A stretch of 36,926 nt of DNA from Saprospira grandis DSM 2844 (GTDB taxonomy: Bacteria; Bacteroidota; Bacteroidia; Chitinophagales; Saprospiraceae), in NCBI RefSeq assembly GCF_000275825.1, contig NZ_JH719942.1, positions 309,354-346,279 on the forward strand. The letters run 5' to 3'. Position numbers and translations under genes: made by a program. Positions within the stretch are counted from its first letter, which is position 1. Every line of letters begins with the position of its first letter. Below are positions 1,503 to 36,589 of the stretch, in pieces. The notes beneath the pieces were generated by a model. The model made no database searches, was not told where the DNA came from, and saw only the letters and a list, made by a program, of their open reading frames with translations.

Positions 1503-1647
1503 CAGGGGGCGAAGCCCCCGCAGGCCTAGCGATGTGTAGGGGTGGCCCGCAGGGCCAGACCGAGGCGGCTTTGCCGCCAAAGGGCCGAGCAGACTTGCGA
1601 GCCCCGCAACGTAGCGCCGAGGAGCGCAGCGAGGCGGAGGCCCCAAA
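1503..1647 (-). repeat. GC-rich hairpin repeat, copy A (minus orientation)
   Basis: Belongs to the recurring intergenic family. It carries the conserved blocks GGCCTAGCGATG, GGGCCAGACC, GGGCCGAGCAGAC and TTGCGAGCCCCGC and ends in GGAGGCCCCAAA. The variable hairpin between blocks is GGCGGCTTTGCCGCC. The 341-base gap 1316-1656 holds this repeat, the terminator at 1405-1451 and an AT-rich leader for the 1118-1315 gene. Confidence 0.85.
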
Positions 1648-1656
1648 TCCTGAGGA

Positions 1657-3477
1657 TTAGTGATCTTGTGCTTCGCTAGCCCCAGAAGGGATGCGAATCT
1701 CTTCTACAATTTGCTGTACTTCTAGAGGAGGAGCCGGCGTAAACTGGCAAATCACGATAGAGACGACAAAGTTGACGACCATAGCGACTGTTCCGAAACC
1801 TTCGGGCGAGATGCCAAACCACCAGTCATCGGCAGTAGTGGGGCCAAACATATTAAATTTGTAGTTGAGCATATAGAAAAGCATGAGGCCCAAACCGATG
1901 ACCATTCCAGCAATTGCGCCTTCTTTGTTCATCCGTTTGTAGAAGATCCCCAGGATGATGGCTGGGAAGAAGGAGGCCGCAGCCAAACCAAAAGCTAGGG
2001 CCACAACGGCCGCCACAAAGCCCGGAGGATTGATCCCGAAATAACCGGCTACGACCACCGCAAAAGCGGCACTAATTCGGGCGGCCAAAAGTTCTCCTTT
2101 TTCAGAAATATCGGGCATGAGCTGCATTTTGAGCAAATCGTGCGCAATAGAAGTTGAAATGACGAGCAGTAGACCTGCTGCTGTAGAAAGGGCCGCGGCT
2201 AATCCGCCCGCTGCCACCAAGGCAATTACCCAATTGGGCAGCCCGGCAATTTCTGGATTGGCCAGTACAATAATATCGCGGTCAATATAGAGTTCGTTTT
2301 TGCTCGACTCATCGGGGTTGGTCACCAGACGTTCGCCATTGGCGCCATTGTCTTCGGCAAAAACAGGCGTTTTTCCTTTGATGGCGGGACCAGCTACATA
2401 CTGAATGCGGCCATCATTGTTTTTATCGGACCAAGCCACTAGGCCAGTTTCTTCCCACTGCTTGAACCAGTCGGGCATGGCTTTGTACTCTACATGCTCT
2501 TTGGTCTCTTCATTATAGACCGTTTGCAAGAGGTTGGTGCGAGCAAAGGCCGAAATGGCAGGAGCCGTGGTGTATAGAATAGCGATTAGGATAAGCGCAT
2601 AGCCGCCAGAAAGGCGAGCCGAGCGCACATCGGGCACCGTAAAGAAGCGCACAATTACGTGAGGAAGCCCAGCCGTACCCACCATTAGGGCACAAGTAAT
2701 GGCAAAGACATCAATCATGCTCTTTTTGCCCGAGGTATACTCATGGAAACCAAGGTCTCGATGTAAACTATCTAGTTTATCTAAGAGAAAGGTGCCATCT
2801 TCTAGGGTTCCGCCAAAGCCAAGCTGGGGAATAGGCGTTCCAGTCATCTGAATCGCAATAAAGATAGCCGGCACCATAAAGGCAAAAATCAAGACGCAGT
2901 ATTGGGCCACCTGGGTGTAGGTAATCCCTTTCATCCCGCCCAAAACGGCATAGAAAAATACGATCAGCATCCCGATGACTACCCCCCATTCGATAGAGGT
3001 TTCTAGAAAGCGAGAGAAAACTACTCCTACCCCACGCATTTGTCCAGCTACATAAGTAAAAGAGACAATAATAGCGGCCAAAACAGCCACCAAACGAGCA
3101 GTACCCGAATAATAGCGATCTCCGATAAAATCGGGCACCGTAAACTTACCAAACTTACGCAGATAAGGCGCAATGGTTAGGGCCAACAGGACGTATCCAC
3201 CGGTCCAGCCCATGAGGTAAACTCCACCATCATAGCCCATAAAGGAAATCAGTCCCGCCATAGAGATAAAGGAAGCAGCAGACATCCAGTCGGCAGCAGT
3301 AGCGGCCCCATTGGTGAGGGGCGAAACCCCTCCGCCAGCAACATAGAAATCTTTGGTAGAAGAAGCTCTTGACCAAATGGCAATAAAAATATAGAGGCTA
3401 AAAGTCAGCCCAACTAAGATATAGGTCCAGCTTTGCACCGATAAAAGCGGCAAGCCAGCAAATAGATAATTCATCAT
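1657..3477 (-). CDS. Sodium:solute symporter, VC_2705 subfamily (large subunit, acetate/monocarboxylate-like)
   Basis: 606 residues with about 13 predicted transmembrane helices. Family signatures include FYVAGGGVSPLTNGAATAAD (about 43-62), WMSAASFISMAGLI, a GQMRGVGVVFSRFLE stretch and the VLGGMKGITYTQVAQY block. These match the ActP-related SSS branch whose members pair with a DUF4212 small subunit, and that subunit lies immediately upstream (25-base gap). The protein is a little longer than ActP because of a hydrophilic insert (about residues 325-395, acidic and glycine-rich) before the ALVAAGGLAAALSTAAGLLL helix. It is likely a Na+-driven carboxylate uptake protein. The substrate is not readable from sequence. 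Third gene of a porin - small subunit - symporter operon. Confidence 0.9.
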   Translation of the reverse strand: MMNYLFAGLPLLSVQSWTYILVGLTFSLYIFIAIWSRASSTKDFYVAGGGVSPLTNGAATAADWMSAASFISMAGLISFMGYDGGVYLMGWTGGYVLLALTIAPYLRKFGKFTVPDFIGDRYYSGTARLVAVLAAIIVSFTYVAGQMRGVGVVFSRFLETSIEWGVVIGMLIVFFYAVLGGMKGITYTQVAQYCVLIFAFMVPAIFIAIQMTGTPIPQLGFGGTLEDGTFLLDKLDSLHRDLGFHEYTSGKKSMIDVFAITCALMVGTAGLPHVIVRFFTVPDVRSARLSGGYALILIAILYTTAPAISAFARTNLLQTVYNEETKEHVEYKAMPDWFKQWEETGLVAWSDKNNDGRIQYVAGPAIKGKTPVFAEDNGANGERLVTNPDESSKNELYIDRDIIVLANPEIAGLPNWVIALVAAGGLAAALSTAAGLLLVISTSIAHDLLKMQLMPDISEKGELLAARISAAFAVVVAGYFGINPPGFVAAVVALAFGLAAASFFPAIILGIFYKRMNKEGAIAGMVIGLGLMLFYMLNYKFNMFGPTTADDWWFGISPEGFGTVAMVVNFVVSIVICQFTPAPPLEVQQIVEEIRIPSGASEAQDH

Positions 3478-3502
3478 TGTTCTAAGATTTTAAGGCAGTA
3501 AT

Positions 3503-3787
3503 TTATTTGTCTAGTCCATACTTTTTGTCCAAGCGGTTCATCAACCAGACATAGGCAAAAACCAAAACCACAAAGGCATAAATAGAGCCCTGTTGGGCAA
3601 ACCAAAACCCTAGTTTGAAGCCCCCTAATCGGATGCTATCTAGACTGGGCGCAAATAGAATTCCGGCCCCAAAAGAGACCAAAAACCAAATCACTAAAAG
3701 AATAAGTAGATAGCGCAAGTTCTCGCGCCAATAGGCCTTCATCTTTTTGTTGTGGGCCTCTTTATTTTGCAAGTTGTTCTCTTCCAT
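3503..3787 (-). CDS. DUF4212 sodium/substrate symporter small subunit
   Basis: 94 residues, two transmembrane helices (about 27-48 and 66-84). It has the family motifs YWRENLRYLLILLVIWF and GFKLGFWFAQQGSIYAFV, and ends in YVWLMNRLDKKYGLDK. DUF4212 proteins are the conserved small partners of VC_2705-type SSS symporters. Here it lies 25 bases upstream of that symporter and 20 bases downstream of the porin gene, so the three are probably one transcript. Confidence 0.92.
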   Translation of the reverse strand: MEENNLQNKEAHNKKMKAYWRENLRYLLILLVIWFLVSFGAGILFAPSLDSIRLGGFKLGFWFAQQGSIYAFVVLVFAYVWLMNRLDKKYGLDK

Positions 3788-3807
3788 AAGAGTTAAATAT
3801 TTAAGGG

Positions 3808-5040: not shown

Positions 5041-5083
5041 TGTTTTGAGTGCGTTCTTTTATCTGGGTATAAATGTATATAAA

Positions 5084-5097
5084 TATCTATATAGATA
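5084..5097. promoter_or_regulatory. Perfect 14-bp palindrome upstream of the porin operon
   Basis: TATCTATATAGATA lies 44-57 bases upstream of the porin start, in an AT-rich leader. It could be an operator or simply part of the promoter. No clear TAnnTTTG box is visible beside it. Confidence 0.3.
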
Positions 5098-5250
5098 AAA
5101 GTCTATACTCAACTTTTTTCGCCATTTAGGCCAATTTTTTTCTACAAAAGTGCTTCTAGGCCAAATTATCCTTTAAAATAGGGGCTTGAGCTAATAATTA
5201 TTTGGTAAGCTTTTTTCGCCATTTTGTCTATTTTGCTTCTAAGCGAGCTG

Positions 5251-5488
5251 TTTTTTGGGGTTTGGGGCGTTACTCCTTTCAGTCATCGAACTGCGCCCTA
5301 AAGGGCTTGTTGTCGCTTTGGGGCCTCCGCTGCGGCTTCGCCTTGCGGCGCTACGCTTTGGGGCTCGCAGGTCTGCTCGGCCCTTCAGGCTACACTTCGT
5401 TTCGCCTTCGGTCTGGCCCCACGGGCCACCCCTCCGCATCGCTAGGCCTGCGGCGGCTTCGCCGCCTGCTAAACCGCCTAAAGGCCTT
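5251..5488 (+). repeat. GC-rich hairpin repeat, copy B (plus orientation, with extra 5' module)
   Basis: Contains GGGGCCTCCGCTGCGG, GGGGCTCGCAGGTCTGCTCG, GGTCTGGCC and GCATCGCTAGGCCTGCGGC. It is preceded by an additional module (GTTACTCC..TCGAAC..CTAAAGG.CTTGTTGT) that also occurs in copy K. The 741-base gap 5041-5781 holds this copy, the three-hairpin element (5534-5606) and copy C. I see no convincing gene there. Confidence 0.85.
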
Positions 5489-5533
5489 GACTAGCCTGAA
5501 ATTTTTATCAAAGGATGGCCGATAAGTTAATTT

Positions 5534-5606
5534 CATGAGGGTTTCAACCCTCATTTAGAGATCATTGCGAAGCAATACCATTATTGCTGTAGGTTTCAAC
5601 CTACAG
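5534..5606 (+). repeat. Three-hairpin element, copy 1
   Basis: Three successive perfect hairpins: ATGAGGGTT-TC-AACCCTCAT (5535-5554), ATTGC-GAA-GCAAT (5564-5576) and CTGTAGGTT-TC-AACCTACAG (5587-5606). Spacers are 9 and 10 bases. The same architecture recurs inverted at 30857-30930 with compensatory stem changes. Confidence 0.75.
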
Positions 5607-5612
5607 TAAAAA

Positions 5613-5756
5613 GGGCCGAAGGCCCGCAGGCCTAGGGGCCTGAAAGGGGGCCGCGCAGCGGCAGACCTAGGGCGAAATGAAATGAGCCCGCAGGGCCGAG
5701 CAGCCCTGCGAGCCCGGCAAGGGCCCGGCCGCCGAAGGCGGCAGGCCCCAAAAAAA
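5613..5756 (-). repeat. GC-rich hairpin repeat, copy C (minus orientation)
   Basis: Shows GGGCCGAGCAGCCCTGCGAGC and terminal GGCAGGCCCCAAAAAAA. It follows directly on the three-hairpin element and stops about 25 bases before the end of the SUKH gene. The middle part is more diverged than in copies A or I. Confidence 0.75.
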
Positions 5757-5781
5757 CTCAGCCTATATATATAGTATCAAA

Positions 5782-7050: not shown

Positions 7051-7162
7051 GCTACTGCTTAATATTCTGTTTTTTCTGCGAAAAAAGAAATGGCTAGTGG
7101 ACTAAACATTCTATTTAAAGTACTTGTTAAATCCCCAAATATTGTTGATTCAGCAACCACAG

Positions 7163-7196
7163 GCAGAGAGTTTATTGTTAATTCTCTGCTTTTTTA
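7163..7196 (+). terminator. Orphan rho-independent terminator-like hairpin
   Basis: GCAGAGA (7163-7169) pairs with TCTCTGC (7183-7189), followed by TTTTTTA on the plus strand. No plus-strand gene ends nearby, so it may end a short untranslated transcript from 7051-7162. Confidence 0.5.
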
Positions 7197-7249
7197 TTTG
7201 CCAAATTGACTTCCTAAGCCCAAAGGCCCAAAAGATAAGCTAAAAAAAC

Positions 7250-7257
7250 TAAATTTG
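7250..7257 (+). promoter_or_regulatory. Putative Bacteroidota -7 box for fni
   Basis: TAAATTTG fits the TAnnTTTG consensus, 49 bases before the TTG start of fni. I see no good TTG -33 element at the expected distance, so the call is tentative. Confidence 0.35.
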
Positions 7258-7305
7258 TTGTTCTTAGCGTTAAACTGATTAAAAAACGACCAAATACCTA
7301 CTAAT

Positions 7306-8331: not shown

Positions 8332-8413
8332 TCCCTTTTCTAAAAGGAAGCATTCTAGACGAGCTTGTCGTTCTAAAGCAAACAAGACTATTCTCTATAA
8401 AAAAATATAGCCT

Positions 8414-9842: not shown

Positions 9843-10019
9843 TTGGGGCTTTTTTTCTTTTTTGGGGCTGCCCCTCGCTTCGCTCGGGTCGGGCTGTGCC
9901 GGGCTCGCTCTTCGCTCGGCCCTTCGCTTTTTTCGCTTTGCTCAAAAAGCTCGGTCTGGCCTTCGGCCACCCTTTCCATCCCTCAGCCGAGGCGCTTCGC
10001 GCCTACTAGACGCAAAAAA
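9843..10019 (+). repeat. GC-rich hairpin repeat, copy D (plus orientation, diverged)
   Basis: Begins with two tttggggct units, then GGGCTCGCTCTTCGCTCGGCCC, and ends CGGTCTGGCCTTCGGCCACCC followed by GAGGCGCTTCGCGCC. The CATCGCTAGGCC end is missing or degraded. It fills the gap between mvaA and aroK. The open frame continuing upstream of aroK through it is not real coding sequence. Confidence 0.7.
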
Positions 10020-12180: not shown

Positions 12181-12330
12181 CGGGCTCTGCGGTTGGGGCA
12201 GGCTTGGCCTAGCGATGTGCAGCAGTGGCCGTTAGGCCAGACCCAGCCGCTGAAAGCGGCGCAGGGCCGAGCAGACCTGCGAGCTGCGAAACGTAGCGCC
12301 GACGACCAAAGGGAGGCGGAGGCCCCAAAA
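12181..12330 (-). repeat. GC-rich hairpin repeat, copy E (minus orientation)
   Basis: Blocks present: GGCCTAGCGATGTGC, GTGGCCGTTAGGCCAGACC, hairpin GCCGCTGAAAGCGGC, GGGCCGAGCAGACCTGCGAGC and GGAGGCCCCAAAA. The 533-base gap 11977-12509 holds this copy plus the promoter and leader of the VWA gene. Confidence 0.85.
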
Positions 12331-15321: not shown

Positions 15322-16191
15322 TTAAAAATCTAGGTCCAAATCAAAGTCATCCTCATCATCCATTCCTAAATCATCATCATCATCTCCAAAGTCGAAGTCG
15401 TCATCATCGTCGTCCTCCTCATCATCGTCATCATCATCCTCATCATCGTCCTCCTCGTCTCCAAATAAATCATCATCATCCAAATCTAGACCGAGGTCGT
15501 CATCATCGTCATCATCGTCATCTCCGAATAAATCGTCGTCATCATCTCCAAAGAGGTCATCGACATCATCATCCATATCAAAGCCGAGATCATCATCATC
15601 ATCGTCAAAATCCAAATCATCTAGGTCCAAATCATCGGCTAGATCGTCTAGATTGAGGTCATCAAGGTCGAGGTCTAAATCATCATCATCCAAACCGAGG
15701 TCCAGATCGTCATCATCATCGAGGTCGAGGTCCAAATCGCCAAGATCGAGATCGTCTTCATCCAGATCCAAATCGAGGTCCAAGTCTAAATCATCATCAT
15801 CAAGGCCCAAATCCAGATCATCCAGGTCCAAATCATCATCATCCAAACCGAGGTCGAGGTCCAAATCATCTAGATCAAAATCATCATCCTCTTCAATGGC
15901 GGCGCCAGCCGCCGCAGCAGCTACGGCAGCCACAGCTACCCCCGAGCCACCAGCTTGCTCGACTTGTACAATCTCTAGATCTTCTTGCTTGAAGAGGCCT
16001 TGTTTGAGTTGGCGGCCTTCAAACCAAATACAGTTGGGGTCGCCAAAGCTAAAGCCTTGTAATTCGAGGCGGCGATCCATGGCCTTAAAAAGCTGTCCAC
16101 TTCCATCATCATCATGATTGTCTCCAATCAAACGAACAACGGTCATGAGTATATCGTTTTCTTTGTGGCGAACCACATCTCCTACTTGCAT
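15322..16191 (-). CDS. DUF2158-like protein with a giant aspartate-rich tail
   Basis: 289 residues. Residues 1-80 form a small globular domain starting MQVGDVVRHKENDILMTVVR, like the 'vGDvV.lksGgp.MtV' start of YodC/DUF2158 proteins, and include CIWFEGRQLKQGLF near 55-68. A short Gly/Ala/Val linker follows (about 81-97). Residues 98-289 are almost only Asp with Leu, Gly, Phe and a few Glu, in loosely repeating DLDLDDLDLG and LFGDDDDD units, ending DFDLDLDF. The tail must be disordered or metal-bound and carries a huge negative charge. DNA of the tail is a GAT/GAC microsatellite-like tract prone to length change. A second, shorter DUF2158-like gene lies 43 bases upstream on the same strand. 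Function unknown. Confidence 0.8.
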   Translation of the reverse strand: MQVGDVVRHKENDILMTVVRLIGDNHDDDGSGQLFKAMDRRLELQGFSFGDPNCIWFEGRQLKQGLFKQEDLEIVQVEQAGGSGVAVAAVAAAAAGAAIEEDDDFDLDDLDLDLGLDDDDLDLDDLDLGLDDDDLDLDLDLDLDEDDLDLGDLDLDLDDDDDLDLGLDDDDLDLDLDDLNLDDLADDLDLDDLDFDDDDDDLGFDMDDDVDDLFGDDDDDLFGDDDDDDDDDLGLDLDDDDLFGDEEDDDEDDDDDDEEDDDDDDFDFGDDDDDLGMDDEDDFDLDLDF

Positions 16192-17423: not shown

Positions 17424-17572
17424 TTTTGGGGCCCGCGGCCAGCTTCGCTGGCCGCCGCTATGGTCCGGGGCTCGCAAGTCTGCTCGGCCCTCCTTTTTTT
17501 GCGCCAAAGCGCAAAAAAACTCGGTCTGGCCTAGCGGCCACCCCTCCCCAGCGCTGGGCCACTCCACCCTCC
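17424..17572 (+). repeat. GC-rich hairpin repeat, copy F1 (plus orientation)
   Basis: Starts TTTTGGGGCCCGCGGCC, carries GGGGCTCGCAAGTCTGCTCG, CGGTCTGGCC and GGCCACCCCTCC. Its variable hairpin is TTTTTTGCGCC..GGCGCAAAAAA-like. It faces copy F2 as an inverted pair. Confidence 0.8.
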
Positions 17573-17618: not shown

Positions 17619-17814
17619 CAGGCGGCTTCGCCGCCTGTAAAGGGCCGAAGGCCCGCGGCTGAGGGGCTGTAGCAGGGCCGCCAAAGGCGGCAGACCAAGG
17701 AGCAAAGCGACGCAGGGCCGAGCAGGCCTGCGAGCTGCGACAACCAGCCCCAAAGGGGCGCCAGTTCGACGAAGTAAATGGCCCGCCCCGACCAAAGGGA
17801 GGGGCAGCCCCAAA
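17619..17814 (-). repeat. GC-rich hairpin repeat, copy F2 (minus orientation)
   Basis: Begins with the hairpin CAGGCGGCTTCGCCGCCTG, includes GGGCCGAGCAGGCCTGCGAGC, and closes GGGGCAGCCCCAAA just before the end of the DUF1501 gene. The centre between the blocks is shuffled relative to copy A. Confidence 0.75.
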
Positions 17815-20660: not shown

Positions 20661-20802
20661 TTTGGGGCCTCCGCTGCGGCTTCGCCTTGCGGCGCTACGT
20701 TCCGCAGCTCGCTCTTCGCTCGGCCCTGCGGCCTGACGGCCTTGGTCTGCGGCTGCGCCGCACTGCTGCACATCGCTAGGCCGAATGGCCTTCGGCCATT
20801 TC
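20661..20802 (+). repeat. GC-rich hairpin repeat, copy G1 (plus orientation)
   Basis: TTTTTGGGGCCTCCGCTGCGG start, GCAGCTCGCTCTTCGCTCGG, hairpin GGCCTGACGGCC, GGTCTGCGGCTGCGCCGCAC and CACATCGCTAGGCCG. It faces G2 across about 45 bases. The 480-base gap 20640-21119 holds only G1, G2 and the leader of dnaE. Confidence 0.85.
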
Positions 20803-20846: not shown

Positions 20847-20990
20847 AAACCGATGAGCGGCCCAGCGCTGCGGAGGGGTGGCCGAAGGCCAGACCGAAGG
20901 CGAAACGAAGTGTAGCCTGAAGGGCCGAACAGCCCTGTGAGCCCCGCAGCATAGCGGCGGCCAGCTTGCTGGCCGCGGGCCCCAAAAAAA
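20847..20990 (-). repeat. GC-rich hairpin repeat, copy G2 (minus orientation)
   Basis: GCGGCCCAGCGCTGCGGAGG, GTGGCCGAAGGCCAGACCG, GGGCCGAACAGCCCTGTGAGC, CCCCGCAGCATAGCGGCGG and end GCGGGCCCCAAAAAAA. With G1 it makes a long imperfect inverted repeat. Confidence 0.85.
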
Positions 20991-28446: not shown

Positions 28447-28641
28447 TTTTTTTGGGGCCTCCCGCCTGCGGCGGGCGCTACGCTTCAGGGCTCGCAAGTC
28501 TGCTCGGCCCTGCGGCCTGACGGCCTGGGTCTGCGGCTGCGCCGCCCCCTTTCGCATCGCTAGGCCTGCGGCCCTTCGGGCCTGCTATCTGGGCCTGTAG
28601 GTGGAAACCTACAGCTCGGCCCTGCGGCCTTTAGGCTGCAG
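28447..28641 (+). repeat. GC-rich hairpin repeat, copy H (plus orientation)
   Basis: TTTTTTTGGGGCCTCCCGCC start, GCTCGCAAGTCTGCTCGG, GGCCTGACGGCC, GGTCTGCGGCTGCGCCGCC and GCATCGCTAGGCC. It then continues into CTGTAGGTGGAAACCTACAG (28610-28629), a lone hairpin of the GGTTTCAACC type. With the 21-bp array and the 25-bp inverted repeat it fills the gene-free stretch 28373-29314. Confidence 0.8.
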
Positions 28642-28730
28642 AAACAGGGATTTCTGCCCCCAATTGTTAGGAAATTGTTAAAAATGAAAATAATGTAACA
28701 AAATCAAAAAGGGCAAAAGTTCGGTAAAAT

Positions 28731-28996
28731 ACCGAACTGGTTCACCCCCAGACTGAACTGGTTCACCCCCAGACCGAACTGGTTCACCTCCAGACCGAAC
28801 TGGTTCACCTCCAGACCGAACTGGTTCACCCCCAGACCGAACTGGTTCACCTCCAGACCGAACTGGTTCACCCCCAGACCGAACTGGTTCACCCCCAGAC
28901 CGAACTGGTTCACCCCCAGACCGAACTGGTTCACCCCCAGACCGAACTGGTTCACCCCCAGACCGAACTGGTTCACCCCCAGACCGAACTGGTTCA
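28731..28996. repeat. 21-bp tandem repeat array, 12.7 copies
   Basis: Unit ACCGAACTGGTTCACCCCCA plus G, period exactly 21, no insertions or deletions. One copy has C to T at position 3 (28752) and three copies (28773, 28794, 28836) have C to T at the same later position. The end units run into gaattttgtg spacer. The minus strand reads NQFGLGV repeats, but the substitutions change amino acids, so coding is unlikely. Confidence 0.95.
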
Positions 28997-29078
28997 GGGA
29001 GACTGTTCGGGACTGTTCAGAATTTTGTGTATTAGAATAAAATTTTGGCCTTTAGCTGCTTAGGACTCAGCTATTCAT

Positions 29079-29103: not shown

Positions 29104-29219
29104 ATCTAATGGAGTCAGCTCTAAAGGGCCTCAACTATTGATATACAAGGTCTTGATAAATGATTATAGCAAAGAAAAACCTCATCCAAAGGCCCTCTTT
29201 AGAGGGCGGTCTGAAAAGC

Positions 29220-29244: not shown

Positions 29245-29314
29245 CAGGAAGAGCAGGGCCGCGGGAAACAAAAAAGGCCCAAACCCCTCGGTTTGGACCT
29301 GCTCGATCTCTATG

Positions 29315-30523
29315 CTATTTCCCCTCATAAAAGTAGGCCTGCAATAAGGCCCCAAATAAATCCTCCGCCGATTGCTGCGCCGACTGAATGAGCGCCTTTT
29401 GCCGCTCTATCCGCTCCACCAATTGAGCAAATTCCTGCTGTAAAGAAAGTGGGGGAATTAAAATTTTTATGTCTTGCATTTCCTGTGCATTGATATTGGC
29501 CATCCCTACAATGCTTTTACACATTCCTTGCAATGTTTGTTTTCCATGACTAGAATTCAAATAAGCTGATATATATTCTGGTAAGGCCTTTTCATTAGTT
29601 CTTACCCTAATTAAATAACCTGCAATTGCAACAGCCTCATCTCTTTTATAGACAGCCGTTTTCCCTACTAGCTCTTTACTATTTGTTCGATTAAAAACTA
29701 AATCGCCTTTTTTAATGAGATACTTTGGTTGATCCTTTTCTGTTAGATCAATATATTTTAAGCTTGAAAAATCCCAATTTCCTGAGTAGGTAATATTATT
29801 CATTCGGAGATACTCAAAAGCTCCTTCTGAACTTGCCTTTTGACTAGTTCCATAGCGCACTTCCTTAACCAAATCTCTAATTTTCCCCTTCGGAAACTGA
29901 TGAATATTTGTTGTTGGATCCCCAAACATATCCAGGAAGCTGGCCGCCAGCAAACGATCATAATCCTTTAGGCTTTGGGCCAAGGCCTGCCGTACCTTAT
30001 CCGCCCGATCGAGCTGGGCCGCTATGGCCTTTTGCTCTGATAAGGGGGGAAGGGGGATGGAAACCTCCTTTAAGTATCTTGTTAATTGGAGATTTATAAT
30101 ACCAGTTGTTTTATTCTGGTATAGGTTAGTAACCCCTACCTTATGAATATAAAACAAATAGTAGAATAAGAACTTCTGATCTAATTTCTGATCATTTTTA
30201 GCTCTTAAGATAGATGTAAAATTATTGCACAAATAAGTGCCTTCTTCTTTGAAGAAAACAACCCGTCCAACAGGCTGCTTGGGGCTTCCTCCAGACTTTT
30301 CTATAATTACATCTCTTTTGCGTAGCTGCTTTTTCTCGACTTTGGTTTCTGGAATATCTCGATATGCTACACCTTTCGTTAAATCAACTTTACCTTCATT
30401 GGTAAAATTGGTAGTGCGAATTACACCTATTTTTCTATCTGTTGGGTCTGTTCCCCATTCTCCTGAAATAGGTTTTGTCAGTACCTCCCCCAGCTTTACC
30501 TTTTTCCAATCTCTCTTCTTCAT
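29315..30523 (-). CDS. hsdS: Type I restriction-modification specificity subunit HsdS
   Basis: 402 residues, the usual size. It recognises the target sequence and holds HsdM and HsdR. It has two target-recognition domains (about 5-170 and 210-370), each followed by a conserved helix: VSIPLPPLSEQKAIAAQLDR (about 153-172) and ILIPPLSLQQEFAQLVERIE (about 355-374). The N-terminal WKKVKLGEVLTKPISG and the mid-protein FGDPTTNIHQFPKGKIRDLV are typical of HsdS half starts. Same strand as hsdM and hsdR, but separated from hsdM by two GC-rich repeat copies, so translational coupling to hsdM is lost. Confidence 0.93.
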   Translation of the reverse strand: MKKRDWKKVKLGEVLTKPISGEWGTDPTDRKIGVIRTTNFTNEGKVDLTKGVAYRDIPETKVEKKQLRKRDVIIEKSGGSPKQPVGRVVFFKEEGTYLCNNFTSILRAKNDQKLDQKFLFYYLFYIHKVGVTNLYQNKTTGIINLQLTRYLKEVSIPLPPLSEQKAIAAQLDRADKVRQALAQSLKDYDRLLAASFLDMFGDPTTNIHQFPKGKIRDLVKEVRYGTSQKASSEGAFEYLRMNNITYSGNWDFSSLKYIDLTEKDQPKYLIKKGDLVFNRTNSKELVGKTAVYKRDEAVAIAGYLIRVRTNEKALPEYISAYLNSSHGKQTLQGMCKSIVGMANINAQEMQDIKILIPPLSLQQEFAQLVERIERQKALIQSAQQSAEDLFGALLQAYFYEGK

Positions 30524-30550
30524 TTCTTTGATTTATTTGGCTAAACAATT

Positions 30551-30733
30551 GGGCCTCAGCGGCAAGGGGGCGCAGCCCCCTTGGGCCCGTCAGGGCCATT
30601 GGCCCAGCGCTGCGGAGCGGGTGGCCGTCAGGCCAGACCCAGGCGGCGAAGCCGCCGCAGGGCCGAGCAGACTTGCGAGCCCCGCAGCATAGCGGCGGCC
30701 GCCCCAAATTGAAGGGCGGCCGCGGGCCCCAAA
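30551..30733 (-). repeat. GC-rich hairpin repeat, copy I (minus orientation)
   Basis: Complete copy: CCCCCTTGGGCCCGTCAGGG, GGCCCAGCGCTGCGGAGCGG, GTGGCCGTCAGGCCAGACCC, hairpin GGCGGCGAAGCCGCC, GGGCCGAGCAGACTTGCGAG and CCCCGCAGCATAGCGGCGG, closing with an extra GGGCGGCCGCGGGCCCCAAA. Its two ends recur in copy J. Confidence 0.9.
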
Positions 30734-30735
30734 TC

Positions 30736-30804
30736 CTAAAAATAATCTAGATAATTGGTAATATCTAGTTCTTCATCCAAAGCTTTTTGCTGCAGCAAAT
30801 GGAT
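30736..30804 (-). pseudogene. Possible displaced 3' end of hsdM
   Basis: Between repeats J and I the minus strand reads LLQQKALDEELDITNYLDYF and stop. hsdM itself ends DLQQLLD-stop exactly where repeat J begins. The shared LQQ codons (TTGCAGCAG versus TTGCTGCAGCAA) suggest that this is the former hsdM tail cut off by the repeat, with a short target duplication (TGCAGCA). Confidence 0.4.
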
Positions 30805-30996
30805 GCCCCCTTGGGCCCGTCAGGGCCATTGGCCCAGCGCTGCGGAGGACCGTTTTCGGTAGGTTAAAACCCACCGCAACAAGGCTATCGCTTTGCGATG
30901 ATTTATAGCATGAGGGTTGAAACCCTCATGAATTTAGCCCCGCAGCATAGCGGCGGCCGCCCCAAATTGAAGGGCGGCCGCGGGCCCCAAAAAAAA
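30805..30996 (-). repeat. GC-rich hairpin repeat, copy J (minus orientation, centre replaced)
   Basis: Same left end (CCCCCTTGGGCCCGTCAGGG, GGCCCAGCGCTGCGGAGG) and same right end (CCCCGCAGCATAGCGGCGG to GGGCCCCAAAAAAA) as copy I, but the middle is the three-hairpin element (30857-30930) instead of the GGCCAGACC/GGGCCGAGCAG core. The right end abuts the hsdM stop codon. Confidence 0.85.
30857..30930 (-). repeat. Three-hairpin element, copy 2 (inverted)
   Basis: On the plus strand: CGGTAGGTT-AA-AACCCACCG (30857-30876, one mismatch), ATCGC-TTT-GCGAT (30887-30899) and CATGAGGGTT-GA-AACCCTCATG (30909-30930), spacers 10 and 9. It is the reverse of the 5534-5606 arrangement, with changed but still pairing stems. 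Confidence 0.75.
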
Positions 30997-32502
30997 CTAA
31001 TCTAAAAGCTGCTGCAAATCAGAAAGTTCTTTTAGGCTGCTTTGTAAATCCTGCTGAATCTTTTGGATAATCTCTTGGGGCGGATCATAGGCCACCGCCT
31101 CATACTGAATCTCCTTATAGCGGTTGATGGAGAGATCATAATCATTTTCTTGTAGCTCAGAAAGGGGCACCATAAAGGACTGATCGGTGCGGCTGCGGTT
31201 TTCCTCCTGTTCCAGCTTGGCCCAGCGTTGCAAAATATCGGGCAGATTATTCTCTTCATGGCTTTGGGTTTGGCCCTCTTTGCCCAAAAACTGCCGCTTA
31301 TCATCTAGCGAAAAGCCATCGGCCTGCATATCGTAGAACCAGACCTTATCGGTGCCGCCCGCATTGGTTTTGGTAAAAATTAGGATGGCCGTGCTGACCC
31401 CCGCATAGGGTTTGAAAACGCCCGAAGGCATAGAAATAACGGCCTGTAGCTCCTGTTTTTCTACCAACTGTTTGCGGATTTCCTTATGGGCCTTGCTGCT
31501 GCCAAAGAGAACGCCATCGGGGATAATGACCGCCGCTCTACCGCCATTTTTGAGTAGGCGAAGGATTTGGGCCAAAAAGAGCAACTCCGACTTCTTTGTA
31601 TTGACCACCTTGGTTAGTTCCTCATCCAAATCATCCTTGTCCACCGTCCCCTTAAAAGGCGGATTGGCGAGGATGAGCGAGCAACTCTCTTCTAGGTCGG
31701 CATTTCGGGGCGAAAGCGCATTGATATCGCGCAACAAAGGTTGCTCGATGCCGTGCACAAAAAGGTTCATGGCACCCACACGGACCATAGTGGGGTCAAA
31801 CTCTAGGGCCGAGAACATCTTGCTGCGGAAATGCGCCTGGTTTTCGCTTTTGACCAAGGCCTCCTGATGGTTTTTGCGGACATAATCGGCGGCCTCTACC
31901 AAAAAGCCTGCGGTACCTGCCGAGGGGTCGCAAATGGTATCTTGTACATTGGGTTGCATCATATCCACCATCAGGCGGATGATATGTCGGGGCGTGCGGA
32001 ACTGCCCATTTTTCCCGGCCGAAGAGAGTTTAGACAGTAGATATTCATAGAGGTCTCCCTTGGTATCCGAGTCCTTATAATTGACCGAAGAAAGGGCCAA
32101 CACCACCTGATCCAGCAACTTAGCGGAGGGGATCATAAAGCTGGCATTTTGCATATATCGGGCAAAGATCGAGACATTCTCCTTAGACTTTCCTTGAGAG
32201 AGTTCTTCTCGCATAAAGGGAAAAACCTCATCGCGCATCTTTTCGAAGCGGGCTTCAGGGGTCATTTCCTTAAGGTTGGACCAGCGGAGGCTTTCTTGAT
32301 CCTCTTCAAAAAAGACCTTTTTCTCATAGCCTTCGCCAAAGAGAGCGGCCAGTTGGTCTTGTGCATTTTGGCGGTTATCGAGTTCCTGCAAAAACATCAG
32401 GTAAGTCAGTTGCTCGATCACGGTCACGGGGTTGGTCACTCCACCCGACCAGAAGTAATTCCAAATTTTATCTATATCGTTGCGTAATTCTCCAGTAATC
32501 AT
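30997..32502 (-). CDS. hsdM: Type I restriction-modification DNA methyltransferase HsdM
   Basis: 501 residues. N6-adenine methyltransferase of the type I complex: N-terminal HsdM_N helical domain (LRNDIDKIWNYFWSGG, IEQLTYLMFLQELDNRQ), LYEYLLSKLSSAGKNGQFRT and PRHIIRLMVDMM linking region, SAM motif I CDPSAGTAGFLV (191-202), catalytic motif IV ILANPPF (277-283) and GGRAAVIIPDGVLFGS. Start ATG 32502. The C-terminus ends abruptly at LQQLLD where a GC-rich repeat begins, and a possible lost tail lies beyond it. Catalytic parts are intact, so methylation is probably functional. Confidence 0.95.
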   Translation of the reverse strand: MITGELRNDIDKIWNYFWSGGVTNPVTVIEQLTYLMFLQELDNRQNAQDQLAALFGEGYEKKVFFEEDQESLRWSNLKEMTPEARFEKMRDEVFPFMREELSQGKSKENVSIFARYMQNASFMIPSAKLLDQVVLALSSVNYKDSDTKGDLYEYLLSKLSSAGKNGQFRTPRHIIRLMVDMMQPNVQDTICDPSAGTAGFLVEAADYVRKNHQEALVKSENQAHFRSKMFSALEFDPTMVRVGAMNLFVHGIEQPLLRDINALSPRNADLEESCSLILANPPFKGTVDKDDLDEELTKVVNTKKSELLFLAQILRLLKNGGRAAVIIPDGVLFGSSKAHKEIRKQLVEKQELQAVISMPSGVFKPYAGVSTAILIFTKTNAGGTDKVWFYDMQADGFSLDDKRQFLGKEGQTQSHEENNLPDILQRWAKLEQEENRSRTDQSFMVPLSELQENDYDLSINRYKEIQYEAVAYDPPQEIIQKIQQDLQSSLKELSDLQQLLD

Positions 32503-32629
32503 AAAGGTATTTTTGTGAGGGGGAAATATAGGAAGTTTTTTGTTGGGATGTTTTTTTTGTTGGGGGGTTTTTGTGGGGGGTGGGCTTGGGTCATATATCT
32601 CATTTTTCTTATTATCTCCCTTCCATGCT

Positions 32630-32860
32630 TACAGCCCTAGGCTGAAGCCCAGGGTTGTTGACTGAGCGAACTGACGGACTAAAGTCCTTGTTCGCTTTTC
32701 GACCCTGAAGCTATTCACTATAGTAAGAAAATGATCCCAAGCCGTTTATTAGTACTCGTTATGGGCCGATGGTTTTAACCTTCGGCTCATTTTTATTGCG
32801 CCTAGTATGGCCTCTTTTGTTGCTGTGGGTTTCAACCCACAGGTACTATAAAATGCCAAT
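32630..32860. other. Cluster of short hairpins between hsdR and hsdM
   Basis: In the 377-base gap: CCCTAGGCTGAAGCCCAGGG (32636-32655), GCGAAC..GGACTAAAGTCC..GTTCGC (about 32668-32696), GGGCCGATGGTTTTAACCTT then CGGCTC (about 32763-32788) and the perfect CTGTGGGTT-TC-AACCCACAG (32831-32850). The last two have the GGTT..AACC core of the three-hairpin elements. Near the hsdM start (32503-32580) the sequence is T/G-rich with no clear promoter. Confidence 0.6.
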
Positions 32861-32879
32861 AGTCGCCTAGGGGCTCCCC

Positions 32880-35800
32880 CTAAGCCGGTTCCGTATTCTT
32901 ATTTATGGCCTTAATGAGCTCTACAAGGCCATGAGCATGCCCACCGAAGAGGTCGACCAAATTGCCATGGCGGTTAAAGGGCTCGCCCGTAATATCTTGG
33001 GGTTGCAAATAGCCATTGGTTACAAAATGCTGCACAATCAATTGGACCAAGGCCAGTTGTTGGGCATTCCATTTTTGGTCTTGCAGATAATCGGCAAAAG
33101 TGCTCTGGACGGCGGCGGGGTCTAGCCCAATAATCGAGCGGATGAATCGGCCCAAAGAGAGTTCGCCTTGTTCGGCTTGCAGTTCTTCTTTTTTGCCCTG
33201 GGTTTGCTCCAGGATAAAGCGTTCTAGGGCTTCTACCTCGGCTAGGGTTAGGGGTTGATTGCTATGCAGCTTTTGTAGATAAAGCTGCTCCTTATTTTCG
33301 GTTAGTAGGCGGTAGAGCCGTTGTTTATAGGGCTCGGAATAGCCGCCATAGCCCTGCATTTCTCTTTCTTCGGCTCCAGTCAGCTCATCGGCAAAATGGC
33401 TATAAATGGCTTGTTTTTGTTTTTTATCGAGCAGGCGGAGCAGTTCCCGCAGTTCTAGGCGGGCCTCCTCTAGTCCCCAAAAATCGAGGGCCTCAATAGC
33501 GCCGAGTTGGCGCAACTGTCTGATGAGTGGCGCTTTTTCTCGAATCTGTTTGATATTGCCTTTTTGGGCCAGCAGATCGAGGCTTTCTCGCAGGCGGTTG
33601 GCCTTTTTGCTTCGGTCTTTATTTTTCAGGAAAAGCAATTGCAGTTGCCAAATCATTTGATCAAAGCGGCGAGCGCCTAGATCGCTATCCTGATCTACCT
33701 GCGCGGCAACAGGGGCCAGTTCTTCGACAATCTCCTTCAGTTCTTTGCTATTGAGCTGATCCCAGCGGCTGCGCTGCTCATACTTTTTGTAGAGCGGATA
33801 AATGGCTTTGACCTCAATTTGGTGTTGATCTAAATCCATTAGGGCCTGCCAAGCCTCATCTCTTAGGGCCTTTTGATGGGCCAAAAAGCGTTCATCTTCC
33901 TGATAATCCAGATGATTGAGGGCTTGGGCAATTTCTAGCTTAAGCTTATAGGCCCGCTCCTCCATAGAGGGGCTGCGGCTGCCTTGGCCCTTCTCAAAAC
34001 TCTCCTCGAAGAAGCTCACATTATCGCAGACATCAAAGATGTAAAAGAAGGTTTTGTCTTGGCCGGGACCAAAGAGGTCGGGAGACAAACGAGTTCCCCT
34101 ACCGAGCATCTGCCAGAACTTGGCATGAGAACGCAGCTTTTTGTAAAAGACCAGATTGACAATTTGGGGTACATCTACCCCCGTATCGAGCATATCTACC
34201 GAAATGGCAATTTGGGGCAATTGGTTGGGGTCTTTAAAACGATCGTAAAGTGATTCTACATGATCCTTGCTGCCATAAATGGTTTCGGCTAAGTCCGCCT
34301 GGGCCGGAAAAAGCAAATCAAAGCGCTTTTTGAGAAACTTAGCATGCTTGATATTTTTGGCAAAGATGATGGTTTTGCCCAGTTTATCGCCTTGTTCTAC
34401 CTTAAGGCCCTTTTCCATCAAGAGATGGAGGACTTTATCGGCTGTGGGGGCATTAAAGAGGCGAACATCTAGCTCGCTATTGGCGATAGATTCGGGCATT
34501 TCCTCCTCTTCTTCATTCATGAAACTATCTTCATACTCTTCTTTTTCGGCGGGACTAAGGTCCTTATAATGCACCCCCTCATTAGTAATTTGGGTGCTAC
34601 CATCTATAATGATGGGCGGAACCAGATAATTGGCTGCCACCGCCTCTTTGAGTGGATACTCAAAGGTGGGGTTTTCATTGGCACAATGAAAAAGCTGATA
34701 GGTATTGCGGTCCACCTGATCTTGGGGCGTAGCCGTTAGGCCGATTAAAATTGCATCAAAATAATCAAAGATGGCCTTATACTTTTTATAGACCGAACGG
34801 TGGGCCTCATCCACCACAATAAAATCGAATTGGGCAATGCCAAATTTTCGCTCCTCTGTTCTATTCAGATAATTGAGCATGCTGGGATAAGTAGAGAAGA
34901 CCAAGCGGGCATGCTCCTCCCCTTCTTCCTTTTTATCGAGCAGACTAATGCTGCTGTAGTTTTCTAGATGATCTTTAAAAGCATGCTGGGCTTGTTTGAC
35001 TAAAGTGCGGCGGTCGGCTAAAAAGAGGATGCGTTTGGCCCAGTTATTTTCAAAAAGGACCTTAGCTAAAGCCGCAGCTGTACGGGTTTTCCCGCTACCC
35101 GTGGCCATAGATAAAAGCACCGCCCGCTCTCGGTTTTCTAGGGCTTGGTTCACACTGAGCACGGCCTGCATTTGGTAGGGGCGGCCCGCAATCTGAGGGT
35201 CGGGCCCTACCGTCGAAATGGCTTTTCTATTTTTGTGTTTATAGTGTAGATGCTCTAGCTCTTCTCGGCTATAAAAGCCCAAAATAGAGCGCTCTGCCTT
35301 ATAAAACTGATCATCGATGATCGTGGTTTCTAGGCCATTACTCAAAAAGATAATGGGACGGCAGCCCGTAGTTCGTTCTAGGGCATCGGCATATAGTTTG
35401 GCCTGTTCCTTTCCTTTTTCGGGGTCTTTCGTAATGGATTTGGCTTCGAGAATAGCTAAGGGCAATCCTTTTTCATCAAAGAATACATAATCGGCATAGC
35501 CCTTACGGCCAGGATACATCTCATGAATGGTATATTCTTCAACAACTTGTCGATGGTCCTTCAGATTCCAACCCGCTTCTCGCAGCATCTGGTTAATGTA
35601 GAGTTCGCGACTTTCTTTTTCGGTCCGCACCTCTGGGGCTAGGCCAGGTTCCTCGCCTTTTTTCAGCATATTGGCACGGTTGCGTTCTTTTTGCGCCTTA
35701 AACTGTGCGTTTTCTTCTTTTAGTCGCTGGTGTTCCTCCTCAATTTTCTTGAGCCGCTCGAGCTCCTTAAGGATGGTTTTCTGTTTGTCCTCAAAGCTTT

Positions 35801-36278
35801 TTTCTAGTTTGGCCAATTCCTTTCGGCTCAGTTCCTTTTGGGCGCTTCCGCCTAGGGGCAAATGCTCATCGGACCAGCTATGAATGGGCATAGCTTCATT
35901 GGCCGAATAACTTCGGGCCAGCCAATTCATAAAGCGAAAAACATTTTTTAGGGCCTCTTTGGCCTCTTCTCCACTGACCGCCTGAACACTATGGGCAGCC
36001 GCATTTCCAATTTTGCGAATATAGTCAAGGTCCCGCTGCATAGAAGGCCGCAGCATCTGCTTAAAACTGGGCTTTTGCAAAAGACCAAAAAGGGTTTCAT
36101 CGGCATAGCGCTGATCCAAATCTTCATCATGGTCATAAAGCCAATAAACCGTTAATTCTAAAGTCAATCGGCTATAAAAAGCAGCCGTCCGAGGAGCGGT
36201 TAATAGGTGTTTTTCGGCCTCTCTTGCTTGGGTATAGAGCTGGGGCCATTCCTTTTTGAGGAAGTGGAAATTACTCAT
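32880..36278 (-). CDS. hsdR: Type I restriction enzyme restriction subunit HsdR (EcoEI-like)
   Basis: 1132 residues from ATG 36278 (MSNFHFLKKEWPQLYTQARE); the frame is open 18 codons further but those look like leader. Order: DUF4145-like N-terminus (HLLTAPRTAAFYSRLTLELT, IGNAAAHSVQAVS), coiled coil (about 155-225), PD-(D/E)XK nuclease (GYADYVFFDEKGLPLAILEA-KS, with the Asp...Glu-Ala-Lys signature), then SF2 translocase motifs: LLSMATGSGKTRTA (Walker A), IVVDEAHRS (DEAH), LTATPQ, SVDMLDTGVDVP and FWQMLGRGTRLS, then the EcoEI_R C-terminal region. Cleaves unmodified foreign DNA after translocation. All motifs are intact. Two gaps with repeats separate hsdR, hsdM and hsdS. Confidence 0.95.
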   Translation of the reverse strand: MSNFHFLKKEWPQLYTQAREAEKHLLTAPRTAAFYSRLTLELTVYWLYDHDEDLDQRYADETLFGLLQKPSFKQMLRPSMQRDLDYIRKIGNAAAHSVQAVSGEEAKEALKNVFRFMNWLARSYSANEAMPIHSWSDEHLPLGGSAQKELSRKELAKLEKSFEDKQKTILKELERLKKIEEEHQRLKEENAQFKAQKERNRANMLKKGEEPGLAPEVRTEKESRELYINQMLREAGWNLKDHRQVVEEYTIHEMYPGRKGYADYVFFDEKGLPLAILEAKSITKDPEKGKEQAKLYADALERTTGCRPIIFLSNGLETTIIDDQFYKAERSILGFYSREELEHLHYKHKNRKAISTVGPDPQIAGRPYQMQAVLSVNQALENRERAVLLSMATGSGKTRTAAALAKVLFENNWAKRILFLADRRTLVKQAQHAFKDHLENYSSISLLDKKEEGEEHARLVFSTYPSMLNYLNRTEERKFGIAQFDFIVVDEAHRSVYKKYKAIFDYFDAILIGLTATPQDQVDRNTYQLFHCANENPTFEYPLKEAVAANYLVPPIIIDGSTQITNEGVHYKDLSPAEKEEYEDSFMNEEEEEMPESIANSELDVRLFNAPTADKVLHLLMEKGLKVEQGDKLGKTIIFAKNIKHAKFLKKRFDLLFPAQADLAETIYGSKDHVESLYDRFKDPNQLPQIAISVDMLDTGVDVPQIVNLVFYKKLRSHAKFWQMLGRGTRLSPDLFGPGQDKTFFYIFDVCDNVSFFEESFEKGQGSRSPSMEERAYKLKLEIAQALNHLDYQEDERFLAHQKALRDEAWQALMDLDQHQIEVKAIYPLYKKYEQRSRWDQLNSKELKEIVEELAPVAAQVDQDSDLGARRFDQMIWQLQLLFLKNKDRSKKANRLRESLDLLAQKGNIKQIREKAPLIRQLRQLGAIEALDFWGLEEARLELRELLRLLDKKQKQAIYSHFADELTGAEEREMQGYGGYSEPYKQRLYRLLTENKEQLYLQKLHSNQPLTLAEVEALERFILEQTQGKKEELQAEQGELSLGRFIRSIIGLDPAAVQSTFADYLQDQKWNAQQLALVQLIVQHFVTNGYLQPQDITGEPFNRHGNLVDLFGGHAHGLVELIKAINKNTEPA

Positions 36279-36383
36279 GTTTGTCTGTTTTGTTCTGCCC
36301 TGAAAATAATTAAAATGCGTCAAGAAGTACAAATAAAACTAACTTTTGTCCAGCCTATCTAGAATCTAATATTTTTTTTGATG

Positions 36384-36589
36384 TTTTGGGGCCTCCCGCC
36401 TGCGGCGGGCGCTACGTTTCGCAGCTCGCTATTCGCTCGGCCCTGCAGCGGCTGCGCCGCTTTGGTCTGGCCCTGCGGGCCACTGCTGCACATCGCTAGG
36501 CCGCCCCCTACTGCGCATCGGTTACTCCCTTCGGTCGTCGAACGGCGGCCTAAAGGCCTTGTTGTGGCCGGGCGCTTCGCGCCCCCAAA
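36384..36589 (+). repeat. GC-rich hairpin repeat, copy K (plus orientation, with extra 3' module)
   Basis: TTTTGGGGCCTCCCGCCTGC start, GCAGCTCGCTATTCGCTCGG, hairpin AGCGGCTGCGCCGCT, GGTCTGGCCCTGCGGGCCAC and CACATCGCTAGGCCG, then the module GTTACTCC..TCGTCGAAC..CTAAAGGCCTTGTTGT shared with copy B, ending GGGCGCTTCGCGCCCCC. It fills the gap between hsdR and the Rpn gene (36279-36742) together with AT-rich leader. Confidence 0.85.

Follow-up and report, generated by a model that had tools for sequence, protein, structure and literature searches.

The window analysed here, a 36,926-nt stretch of the genome of Saprospira grandis DSM 2844, a predatory marine bacterium, contains thirteen copies of an intergenic repeat. 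A search with a profile derived from these copies recovered 13 of them in the window at E ≤ 0.001, six on the plus and seven on the minus strand and all at E ≤ 1.2e-9; with the same profile, the reversed window sequence used as a decoy gave no match at E ≤ 10. A further 27-nt match (E 0.88) was left out of the count. The number, places and orientation split given by a first-pass annotation were thereby reproduced, with core starts displaced by at most 66 nt (for example, the core of the copy placed at 5251 spans 5317-5448), and the ordered blocks it described as common to the copies are real in the alignments. Close facing pairs, of which two had been reported, number three (5317/5629, 17425/17664 and 20661/20859). 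The features are:

1523..1647, minus strand, copy A (nhmmer 90 bits; orthologous copies in G005, G001 and G002)
5317..5448, plus strand, copy B, facing pair with C (nhmmer 86 bits; arms replaced from one species to another, same place)
5629..5752, minus strand, copy C, facing pair with B (nhmmer 54 bits; cross-species comparison)
9861..9988, plus strand, copy D, closing stem of GGCTG/CAGCC type (nhmmer 36 bits)
12206..12329, minus strand, copy E (nhmmer 86 bits; cross-species comparison)
17425..17560, plus strand, copy F, facing pair with G, closing stem of GGCCC/GGGCC type (nhmmer 85 bits)
17664..17813, minus strand, copy G, facing pair with F (nhmmer 38 bits; cross-species comparison)
20661..20782, plus strand, copy H, facing pair with I (nhmmer 66 bits; cross-species comparison)
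20859..20986, minus strand, copy I, facing pair with H (nhmmer 72 bits; cross-species comparison)
28451..28566, plus strand, copy J (nhmmer 70 bits; served as query against the genome)
30601..30733, minus strand, copy K (nhmmer 74 bits; cross-species comparison)
30831..30991, minus strand, copy L, hybrid (nhmmer 49 bits; repeat family D18; alignment)
36384..36387, plus strand, example of a T run (4 T) ahead of GGGG, copy M (sequence)
36385..36502, plus strand, copy M (nhmmer 73 bits; cross-species comparison)

Far from being absent elsewhere in the genome, which the annotation had set as a refuting condition, copies are abundant: 126 were found in 20 systematically spaced 20-kb stretches (profile search, E ≤ 0.001). 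From the 3.1-3.4 copies per 10 kb sampled we estimate a total of about 1,400-1,500 in the 4.5-Mb genome, and the element makes up about 4.3% of 557 kb sampled contiguously. Homologues occur in 28 of 298 Saprospiraceae genomes with an abundance that is patchy across the family (genome G018 has 116 pattern matches). The element is a family of Saprospiraceae, hugely amplified in Saprospira. Its location is intergenic, as first described: after dropping ORFs with more than 40% of their length inside copies, just 10 of 182 copies overlapped a called gene over a stretch longer than 20 nt. Some copies do lie within short mechanical ORFs, but a coding sequence or an assembly artefact is scarcely credible given this low overlap, arms that vary freely in length and frame, the silent reversed decoy and the same conserved positions in four genomes, three of which are in 2 contigs.

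Full-length cores measure 113-220 nt with a median of 125 nt (n = 256 copies of G000, a set that leaves out cores above 230 nt). Each copy consists of a closing stem, an arm P1, the covarying stem segments J and Z, a small hairpin and the arms P2 and P3, joined by conserved unpaired linkers. Among the 256 copies, pair 45-110 of Z is GC in 168, AT in 71 and CG in 14, pair 34-121 of J is CG in 151 and GC in 101, and pair 50-59 of the hairpin is GC in 238 and AT in 18. The 18 listed pairs outside P0 comprise 4,473 cells, of which 4,249 are Watson-Crick, 7 G.T, 32 A.C and 185 other, leaving wobble pairs below 1% in these aligned stems; pair 39-116 is Watson-Crick in just 161 of the 256 copies. P0 is argued from alignments and not from pair counts, because its columns are out of register for copies of the GGCTG/CAGCC type. 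The hairpin arms are highly variable in sequence and keep their pairing. The cores thus have a common multi-branch fold supported by covariation, which bears out the earlier description of the element as structured. In the aligned copies it has T(n)GGG(G)C at one end and, in most cases, GGCC or AGCC at the other; the T run is 3-4 nt long in 115 and 6-8 nt long in 119 of 276 copies, and T-richness extends over about 25 nt upstream (276 copies).

The loops of the arms distinguish the two strands. In 401 copies from four congeneric genomes, TGC loops outnumber GCA loops 217 to 1 and TTC loops outnumber GAA loops 181 to 3, so that c(GCA)g, c(GAA)g and c(GTA)g loops characterize the minus strand and are almost missing from the plus strand; outside the elements the control gave TGC 15 against GCA 12. 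G000 alone presents C(TTC)G 142 times against C(GAA)G 2 times, and C(TGC)G 141 times against C(GCA)G once. Such d(GNA) triloops are described as preferring a CG closing pair (PMC5815330). Of 1,203 arms parsed, 839 have a perfect stem with a 3-5-base loop, and in 696 of these the loop has three bases. Folded with DNA parameters, 241 of 256 copies are more stable on the minus strand, the difference being 2.48 ± 0.10 kcal/mol. With RNA parameters 96 of 256 copies have the lower energy on the plus strand, the mean difference is just 0.95 kcal/mol, and the folds contain 4.3 G-U pairs on the plus and 1.2 on the minus strand; global RNA folding energy was accordingly set aside as a strand test, being weak and only slightly tilted to the minus strand. 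Contrary to what a minus-strand fold would lead one to expect, P1 arms on the plus strand show 33 G.T against 2 A.C pairs (0 against 5 in P2, 34 against 29 in P3). The GNA-loop asymmetry is clear in Saprospira only and is absent in G117, G018, G056 and G014 (31, 20, 6 and 3 copies), save for C(TTC)G at 4 against 0 in G117. Judging by the loop asymmetry, folding seems to occur on the minus strand, probably as DNA. In integron attC sites and phage N4 promoter hairpins, likewise, one strand carries the functional fold and stable c(GNA)g triloops occur; the element shares such triloops on its minus strand but, unlike these systems, forms a dispersed chromosomal array.

A covarying multi-branch structure with conserved unpaired linkers is also what structured RNAs present, and the element could act at the RNA level, whether by terminating transcription, by stabilising 3' or 5' UTRs or by giving rise to thousands of small RNAs. 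Where the T side faces a gene 3' end, the copy begins a median of 16 nt past the stop codon, and some minus-strand tetraloops (GCAA, CUUG) are favoured in RNA too. However, the gene ends that face the T side are 3' ends in 90 cases and 5' ends in 83, and between tandem genes the reading direction is unbiased (42 against 42). The plus-strand T run stands before the stem and not after it, and we did not find the arrangement of an intrinsic terminator, a hairpin followed by a T run and facing 3' ends; the Bacteroidota -7 box lies directly ahead of the element in just 4 of 276 copies. A promoter or terminator reading was discarded on the position of the T run and the lack of a gene-end bias. Across the window no Rfam family, and hence no known structured RNA, matched at its gathering score (three matches around copy J, at E 2.7-4.7, are far below threshold). 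With loops mostly of three bases and so few wobble pairs in the stems outside P0, an RNA-level element appears unlikely.

To address mobility, the copies were compared with those of three congeners. In all 97 anchored comparisons a copy is present in place and in the same orientation, and the search for empty sites that the annotation had proposed found none. These 97 species-locus comparisons have common ancestry, and 9, 24 and 26 of the 52 loci per relative were without anchors. Three apparent empty sites had been flagged: one, at 94197, is an anchor artefact, all four genomes holding the copy, and the other two are window copies K and L. That every copy is retained is only a moderate surprise, as the spacer DNA of these gaps can itself be aligned to 76-80%. 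Copy positions are static at the loci compared. The arms, in turn, are exchanged between loci, and their length and frame change freely between species. Copy F has three different P2 arms in four species, and copy G has an additional hairpin module, some 36 nt long, that the three relatives lack. The Z stem of copy D is GGG/CCC in S. grandis and GCAG/CTGC in G005 and G001; in G002, GCAG stands opposite a non-complementary CCCT. In hybrid copy L, a 56-nt T-side part is identical to copy K (repeat family D18) and other palindromes take the place of the middle (alignment).

Flanking target-site duplications showed no significant excess for repeats of 5-8 nt (38 observed at k = 5, where shuffled pairs give 38.2, and 6 at k = 8, where they give 3.3 ± 1.7). 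Neither of two transposase families, Y1 (18 genomes) and PD-(D/E)XK (19 genomes), follows the element. The single Y1 gene of G000 has another repeat on both flanks, the sole copy of the element at this 3.3-kb locus lying about 1.1 kb off, and repeat-rich G018 has no Y1 match; on these grounds the suggested RAYT/IS200-like partner, and with it a RAYT-mobilised REP, was rejected. A PD-(D/E)XK transposase/Rpn partner was rejected as well, being present in G004, G008 and G012, which have no pattern matches, and not found in G056. A PD-(D/E)XK transposase/Rpn-type gene begins at the right edge of the window. Of the proposal of a non-autonomous mobile or structured element, the structured part holds and present mobility finds no support; an ancient mobile origin may still apply.

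REP/BIME sequences are described as intergenic palindromes, with REPs that alternate within BIMEs and bind gyrase or IHF (PMC2817692, PMC3733652). The element is likewise intergenic, palindromic and present in hundreds of copies, but it is a multi-branch structure instead of a single 20-40 bp palindrome, as its earlier description as far larger than REP units anticipated, it shows no terminal GTAG/CGTC tag, and it bounds no RAYT gene in G000. ERIC/RU-1-type intergenic repeats, described as 127 bp long (PMC2759123), and other MITE-like elements are similar in length and location. Unlike these as described, the element has static positions with no presence/absence polymorphism in the anchored comparisons, no detected target duplication, variable arms, and inverted ends that reach no further than its closing stem (about 5 nt). 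It has a structure, then, but shows no visible mobility, and it does not belong to the REPs.

The arrangement of the copies along the chromosome presents a more ordered picture. Neighbouring copies are opposite in orientation in 237 of 283 cases (p 1.8e-32), and, unlike in BIMEs, this alternation runs between intergenic regions that are kilobases and gene blocks apart and not within one cluster. Insertion of tail-to-tail twins was rejected as its cause, as alternation is equally strong among gene-separated single copies (84 against 8 and 54 against 10); twins closer than 450 bp had no common arms in 16 pairs, an uninformative result because random pairs have just 1.6% common arms. An arrangement with accessory genes in plus-to-minus and core genes in minus-to-plus intervals was also rejected, the mapped fractions being alike (0.87/0.86, 0.85/0.88 and 0.82/0.75). 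Within one orientation, mean spacing is 5.6-6.2 kb with a CV of 0.36 and 0.35, against 0.80 ± 0.08 for random subsets, none of 2000 being as regular (tested for plus). The occupied gaps, too, are distributed more evenly than under matched random occupancy (CV 0.49 against 0.77, 0 of 2000). The alternation of neighbours, which takes no account of gene direction, thus results from each orientation being a regular array of its own; shifting the two arrays independently gives an alternation of 0.80, with 0.857 observed, and the two behave almost independently. No other interspersed bacterial repeat is known to have separate regular arrays per orientation. A second genus alternates too (64/90, p 3.8e-5). 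Alternation is not significant in G056 (24/46; short contigs, and a pattern of uncertain sensitivity in this genome) or in G018 (13/22, or 11/16 with matches below 40 bits removed by hand; short contigs), and in G117 the plus array is irregular (CV 0.77; minus CV 0.50).

Because the two arrays are almost independent, the likeliest job for the element is to serve a strand-polar DNA process. We tentatively favour the reading, though it falls short of probable, that these structured DNA elements form an ancient family passed on by vertical inheritance, and that a protein would read their minus-strand fold in the service of such a process. Mechanistically, the minus strand (reading ...GGCCCCAAAA) would fold as extruded or single-stranded DNA, and a putative protein would read it in an orientation-dependent manner. 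The process would require, on each strand, a site in the correct orientation at intervals of a few kb and could be the limiting of end resection or recombination, the bounding of a topological or loop domain, or similar; ectopic gene conversion would keep the copies alike. A more specific version, which we regard as rather doubtful, would make the arrays two interleaved strand-specific rulers that ignore gene direction and that gene conversion maintains, in which a folding element about every 6 kb per strand is read by a putative protein, analogous to orientation-dependent boundary elements. DNA uptake sequences and Chi sites are also many, widespread and orientation-relevant, and an uptake or recombination-enzyme signal grown into a structured element would fit the even spacing and the need for both orientations; such signals are short oligomers (~8-12 nt), unlike a folded 125-nt element in two separately regular arrays, and we judge this origin improbable.

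The same arrays might instead have been left by a selfish non-autonomous transposable element, immobile by now, which has saturated the intergenic space, with spacing set by the purging of deletion-prone direct repeats (nearby inverted repeats merely invert, direct ones delete genes) or by orientation-specific target immunity. We consider this a serious candidate, itself less than probable. Same-orientation pairs make up 6 of 106 below 2 kb, 11 of 59 at 2-3 kb and about 50% beyond 4 kb, a short-range exclusion that avoidance of direct repeats would equally give; near-independence of the opposite arrays, much ectopic arm exchange and the patchy abundance in the family fit as well. The retention at all anchored loci, the missing target-site duplications and the two transposase families that do not follow the copies speak against it. 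In addition, same-orientation pairs at 3-6 kb are scarce in G117 (5/29, against 142/277 in Saprospira), and on a rough argument ectopic exchange would be too rare for effective selection through deletion risk. The idea that deletion avoidance alone sets the spacing is weakened and is retained as a rival, within this selfish-element explanation.

Returning to the protein-read DNA family, even spacing and kept positions look more like chromosome punctuation than leftover junk, the function itself being inferred. If it is under selection, the element points to an unrecognised strand-polar process that relies on marks a few kilobases apart; otherwise it shows how a selfish element can impose order on a chromosome by saturating it. 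The frequent arm exchange is a natural record of ectopic gene conversion. Both readings are testable in Saprospira, of which a complete long-read genome is available (PMC10508125).

The 13 copies (6 plus, 7 minus; E <= 0.001) that the first-pass annotation had described as a likely mobile or structured element were all recovered by a profile made from the copies of the window; the reversed sequence, used as a control, gave no element matches. The window corresponds to G000:C2:309354-346279, G000 being its source genome (4.5 Mb in 5 contigs). Twenty systematic 20-kb stretches of this genome held 126 copies, with a mean of 6.3 per stretch and a variance of 1.59. Using an element model refined in two rounds before density was counted, we found 190 copies in 557 contiguous kb (3.41 per 10 kb), where element cores occupy 4.3% of the DNA, and 112 copies in 18 other stretches (3.11 per 10 kb), which extrapolates to about 1,400-1,500 copies per genome.

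Neighbouring copies were oppositely oriented in 237/283 cases in G000, and in 52/58, 36/41 and 36/41 cases in the Saprospira relatives G005, G001 and G002, counts that share ancestry and are not independent. Gene direction was rejected as the cause: the T side of the element, where a T run precedes GGGG, faces gene 3' ends 90 times and 5' ends 83 times. Copies between tandem genes occur in both reading directions, 42 each; gene distances are approximate, since the gene calls come from a custom caller based on codon usage. Twin insertion was likewise discarded, as single copies separated by genes alternate 84:8 and 54:10.

The key to the alternation is the regular spacing of each orientation on its own. 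Plus copies have a mean spacing of 6.2 kb (CV 0.36) and minus copies of 5.6 kb (CV 0.35), compared with a CV of 0.80 +- 0.08 for random subsets of all positions, none of 2000 being as regular (plus array tested). The orientation correlation runs -0.71, 0.49, -0.33 and 0.14 with increasing lag. Randomly shifting one array against the other gave an alternation of 0.80, close to the 0.857 observed, a value reached by 39 of 3000 shifts; the plus and minus arrays are therefore nearly independent. Same-orientation pairs were rare below 3 kb (17/165), accounted for 28/73 at 3-4 kb, and were normal beyond 4 kb. The occupied gaps were also spaced more evenly (CV 0.49) than when gaps of like type and length were filled at random (CV 0.77 +- 0.06, 0/2000).

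This orientation-specific exclusion fits two readings that stand almost level; a putative RNA role is less likely. A candidate strand-polar function of the element would account for the exclusion; so would the saturation of the genome by a selfish element that either immunity or recombination between direct repeats keeps in check. The selfish-element reading stays in play because the two arrays are nearly independent and no partner for the element was found, but the evenness of spacing exceeds what the gaps impose.

Among family genomes from other genera, G117 showed alternation in 64/90 neighbours within the 100 of its 706 matches that were listed (p 3.8e-5), most strongly at distances under 8 kb (43/53, again among the matches listed), and in 22/30 neighbours along one 262-kb contig scanned with a profile. 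Same-orientation pairs were scarce there below 6 kb (6/38), an exclusion that reaches further than in Saprospira, although regularity per orientation was weaker (CV 0.77 and 0.50). In G018, 13/22 neighbours alternated, or 11/16 after removing weak fragments, and G056 showed no alternation (24/46 opposite).

In plus orientation, the element reads T(n)GGGG, closing stem P0, hairpin arm P1, stem segments J and Z, a small GC/GC hairpin, arm P2, the block GGTCTG, arm P3, and finally the 3' halves of Z, J and P0. P0 occurs as GGCCT/AGGCC, GGCCC/GGGCC or GGCTG/CAGCC, and Z as GGGG/CCCC or GCAG/CTGC; by eye, some G056 and G117 copies carry a C/T mismatch in the closing stem (GGCCA with TGTCC, GGCCT with AGTCC). 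A hairpin follows the 3' end in 136/256 copies, a count made without a control. A mutual-information analysis of 256 copies, made without any assumed structure, placed pairs of P1, P2, P3, J and Z in the highest ranks, along with some correlated columns that are not pairs (53-57, 68-89). The 401 copies parsed from four congeneric genomes contain 154, 226 and 126 distinct P1, P2 and P3 arms, and other genera keep the same frame with wholly different arms. Orthologous copies show the same stem switches as copies within G000: the Z stem of copy D is GGG/CCC in G000 and GCAG/CTGC in G005 and G001, with G002 as an exception (GCAG opposite CCCT). This compensation, too, leans towards function rather than saturation.

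The d(GNA) triloops belong to a wider set of stable DNA loops. Because perfect stems are symmetric, the folding strand has to be read from the loops. On the plus strand of the 401 copies, triloops were TGC 217 times vs GCA 1, TTC 181 vs GAA 3, TAC 15 vs GTA 1 and TTT 124 vs AAA 59, so that c(GNA)g triloops are carried by the minus strand; d(GNA) triloops with a CG closing pair are a known stable DNA motif (PMC5815330). The listed plus tetraloops TTGC (28) and TGAC (16) correspond to GCAA and GTCA on the minus strand, and G000 copies alone give the same asymmetry. Loops of three bases were found in 696 of the 839 arms with a perfect stem (1,203 arms parsed), aligned stems outside P0 hold less than 1% G.T plus A.C and 4% other mismatches, and DNA folding parameters prefer the minus strand in 241/256 copies. 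The loop asymmetry, three-base loops, rare G.T and A.C and DNA-parameter stability favour a minus-strand DNA fold. Against the minus-strand fold, RNA parameters separate the strands little, P1 arms on the plus strand hold 33 G.T vs 2 A.C, and the asymmetry was not seen in the few copies from other genera.

At loci with both flanking genes anchored, a same-orientation copy was present in 43/43 (G005), 28/28 (G001) and 26/26 (G002) cases, the 9, 24 and 26 loci without anchors being left out. Gap by gap, 24/24 copies were kept in G002 and 40/40 in G005, where 80% and 76% of the spacer DNA, respectively, was alignable. Full retention, like stem compensation, evenness beyond gap constraints and the wider exclusion in G117, leans towards function and away from saturation. 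The P2 arms of these static copies were less than 80% identical in 17/39 (G005), 9/26 (G001) and 15/22 (G002) orthologous pairs. Across all arms under 80% identity, not P2 alone, a second sampled G000 copy carries the G000 form in 16/31, 11/20 and 19/39 cases, the signature of modules being exchanged ectopically between copies.

A strict element pattern was present in 28/298 genomes of the GTDB family; read backward as a control, it had no match in any genome. Matches numbered 442-510 in each of four Saprospira genomes, 706 in G117, 235 in G056, 116 in G018 and at most 16 in each remaining positive genome. An exact 25-mer of the core occurred in at least 17 contig stretches of GTDB genomes, every one of which belongs to Saprospira grandis str. 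Lewin. Element profiles work across genera: the Saprospira model gave 38 matches (E <= 0.01) across 304 kb of G018 (34 contigs, 14 of them picked for already holding matches). The dnaE DNA of G000 is 96% identical to that of G001 and G005 and 89% to that of G002. G003 and G004, filed in the same genus, have 70-72% identity over the matched part (G004 70%) and no strict-pattern matches in their fragmented assemblies, so the amplification may be younger than their split, or the element may have been lost there.

We found no description of the element in the titles and abstract beginnings of the top-ranked papers on Saprospira repeats or alternating interspersed repeats, though two earlier Saprospira genome papers might mention it; the string Saprospir- is absent from the main texts of PMC12306157, PMC3733652 and PMC2817692.

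A different hairpin repeat, gccctaggctgaagcccagg...ctgagcgaactgacgg..., lies on both sides of the single Y1 (RAYT-like) transposase gene detected in G000 (3.3-kb locus L021, 1260-2060) and may be the genome's true REP family. Other features of the window are:

15322-16191: gene with long, highly repetitive short units (repeat families D2-D4), with no Pfam match at E <= 1e-5
28710-29000: tandem array of some 13 units of 21 nt (ccgaactggttcacccccaga), arranged head to tail, in the interval from copy J to hsdS
29315-36278: type I restriction locus with Methylase_S, N6_Mtase/HsdM and HsdR domains; copies K and L, which a short stretch separates, break up the locus, and a 56-nt perfect direct repeat lies there; G005 and G001 have one element copy each at this place among the matches listed
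~32630-32730: the hairpin repeat that flanks the Y1 gene
36743-36926: beginning of a gene for a transposase of the PD-(D/E)XK nuclease family (PF12784), which has four matches in G000 (this edge and three further places) and whose presence in 19 genomes showed no correlation with that of the element
5450-5628, 28600-28640, 30860-30935 and 32815-32860: short palindromes of the GTAGGTTTCAACCTAC and GAGGGTTTCAACCCTC type, apparently a further repeat family between or inside element copies
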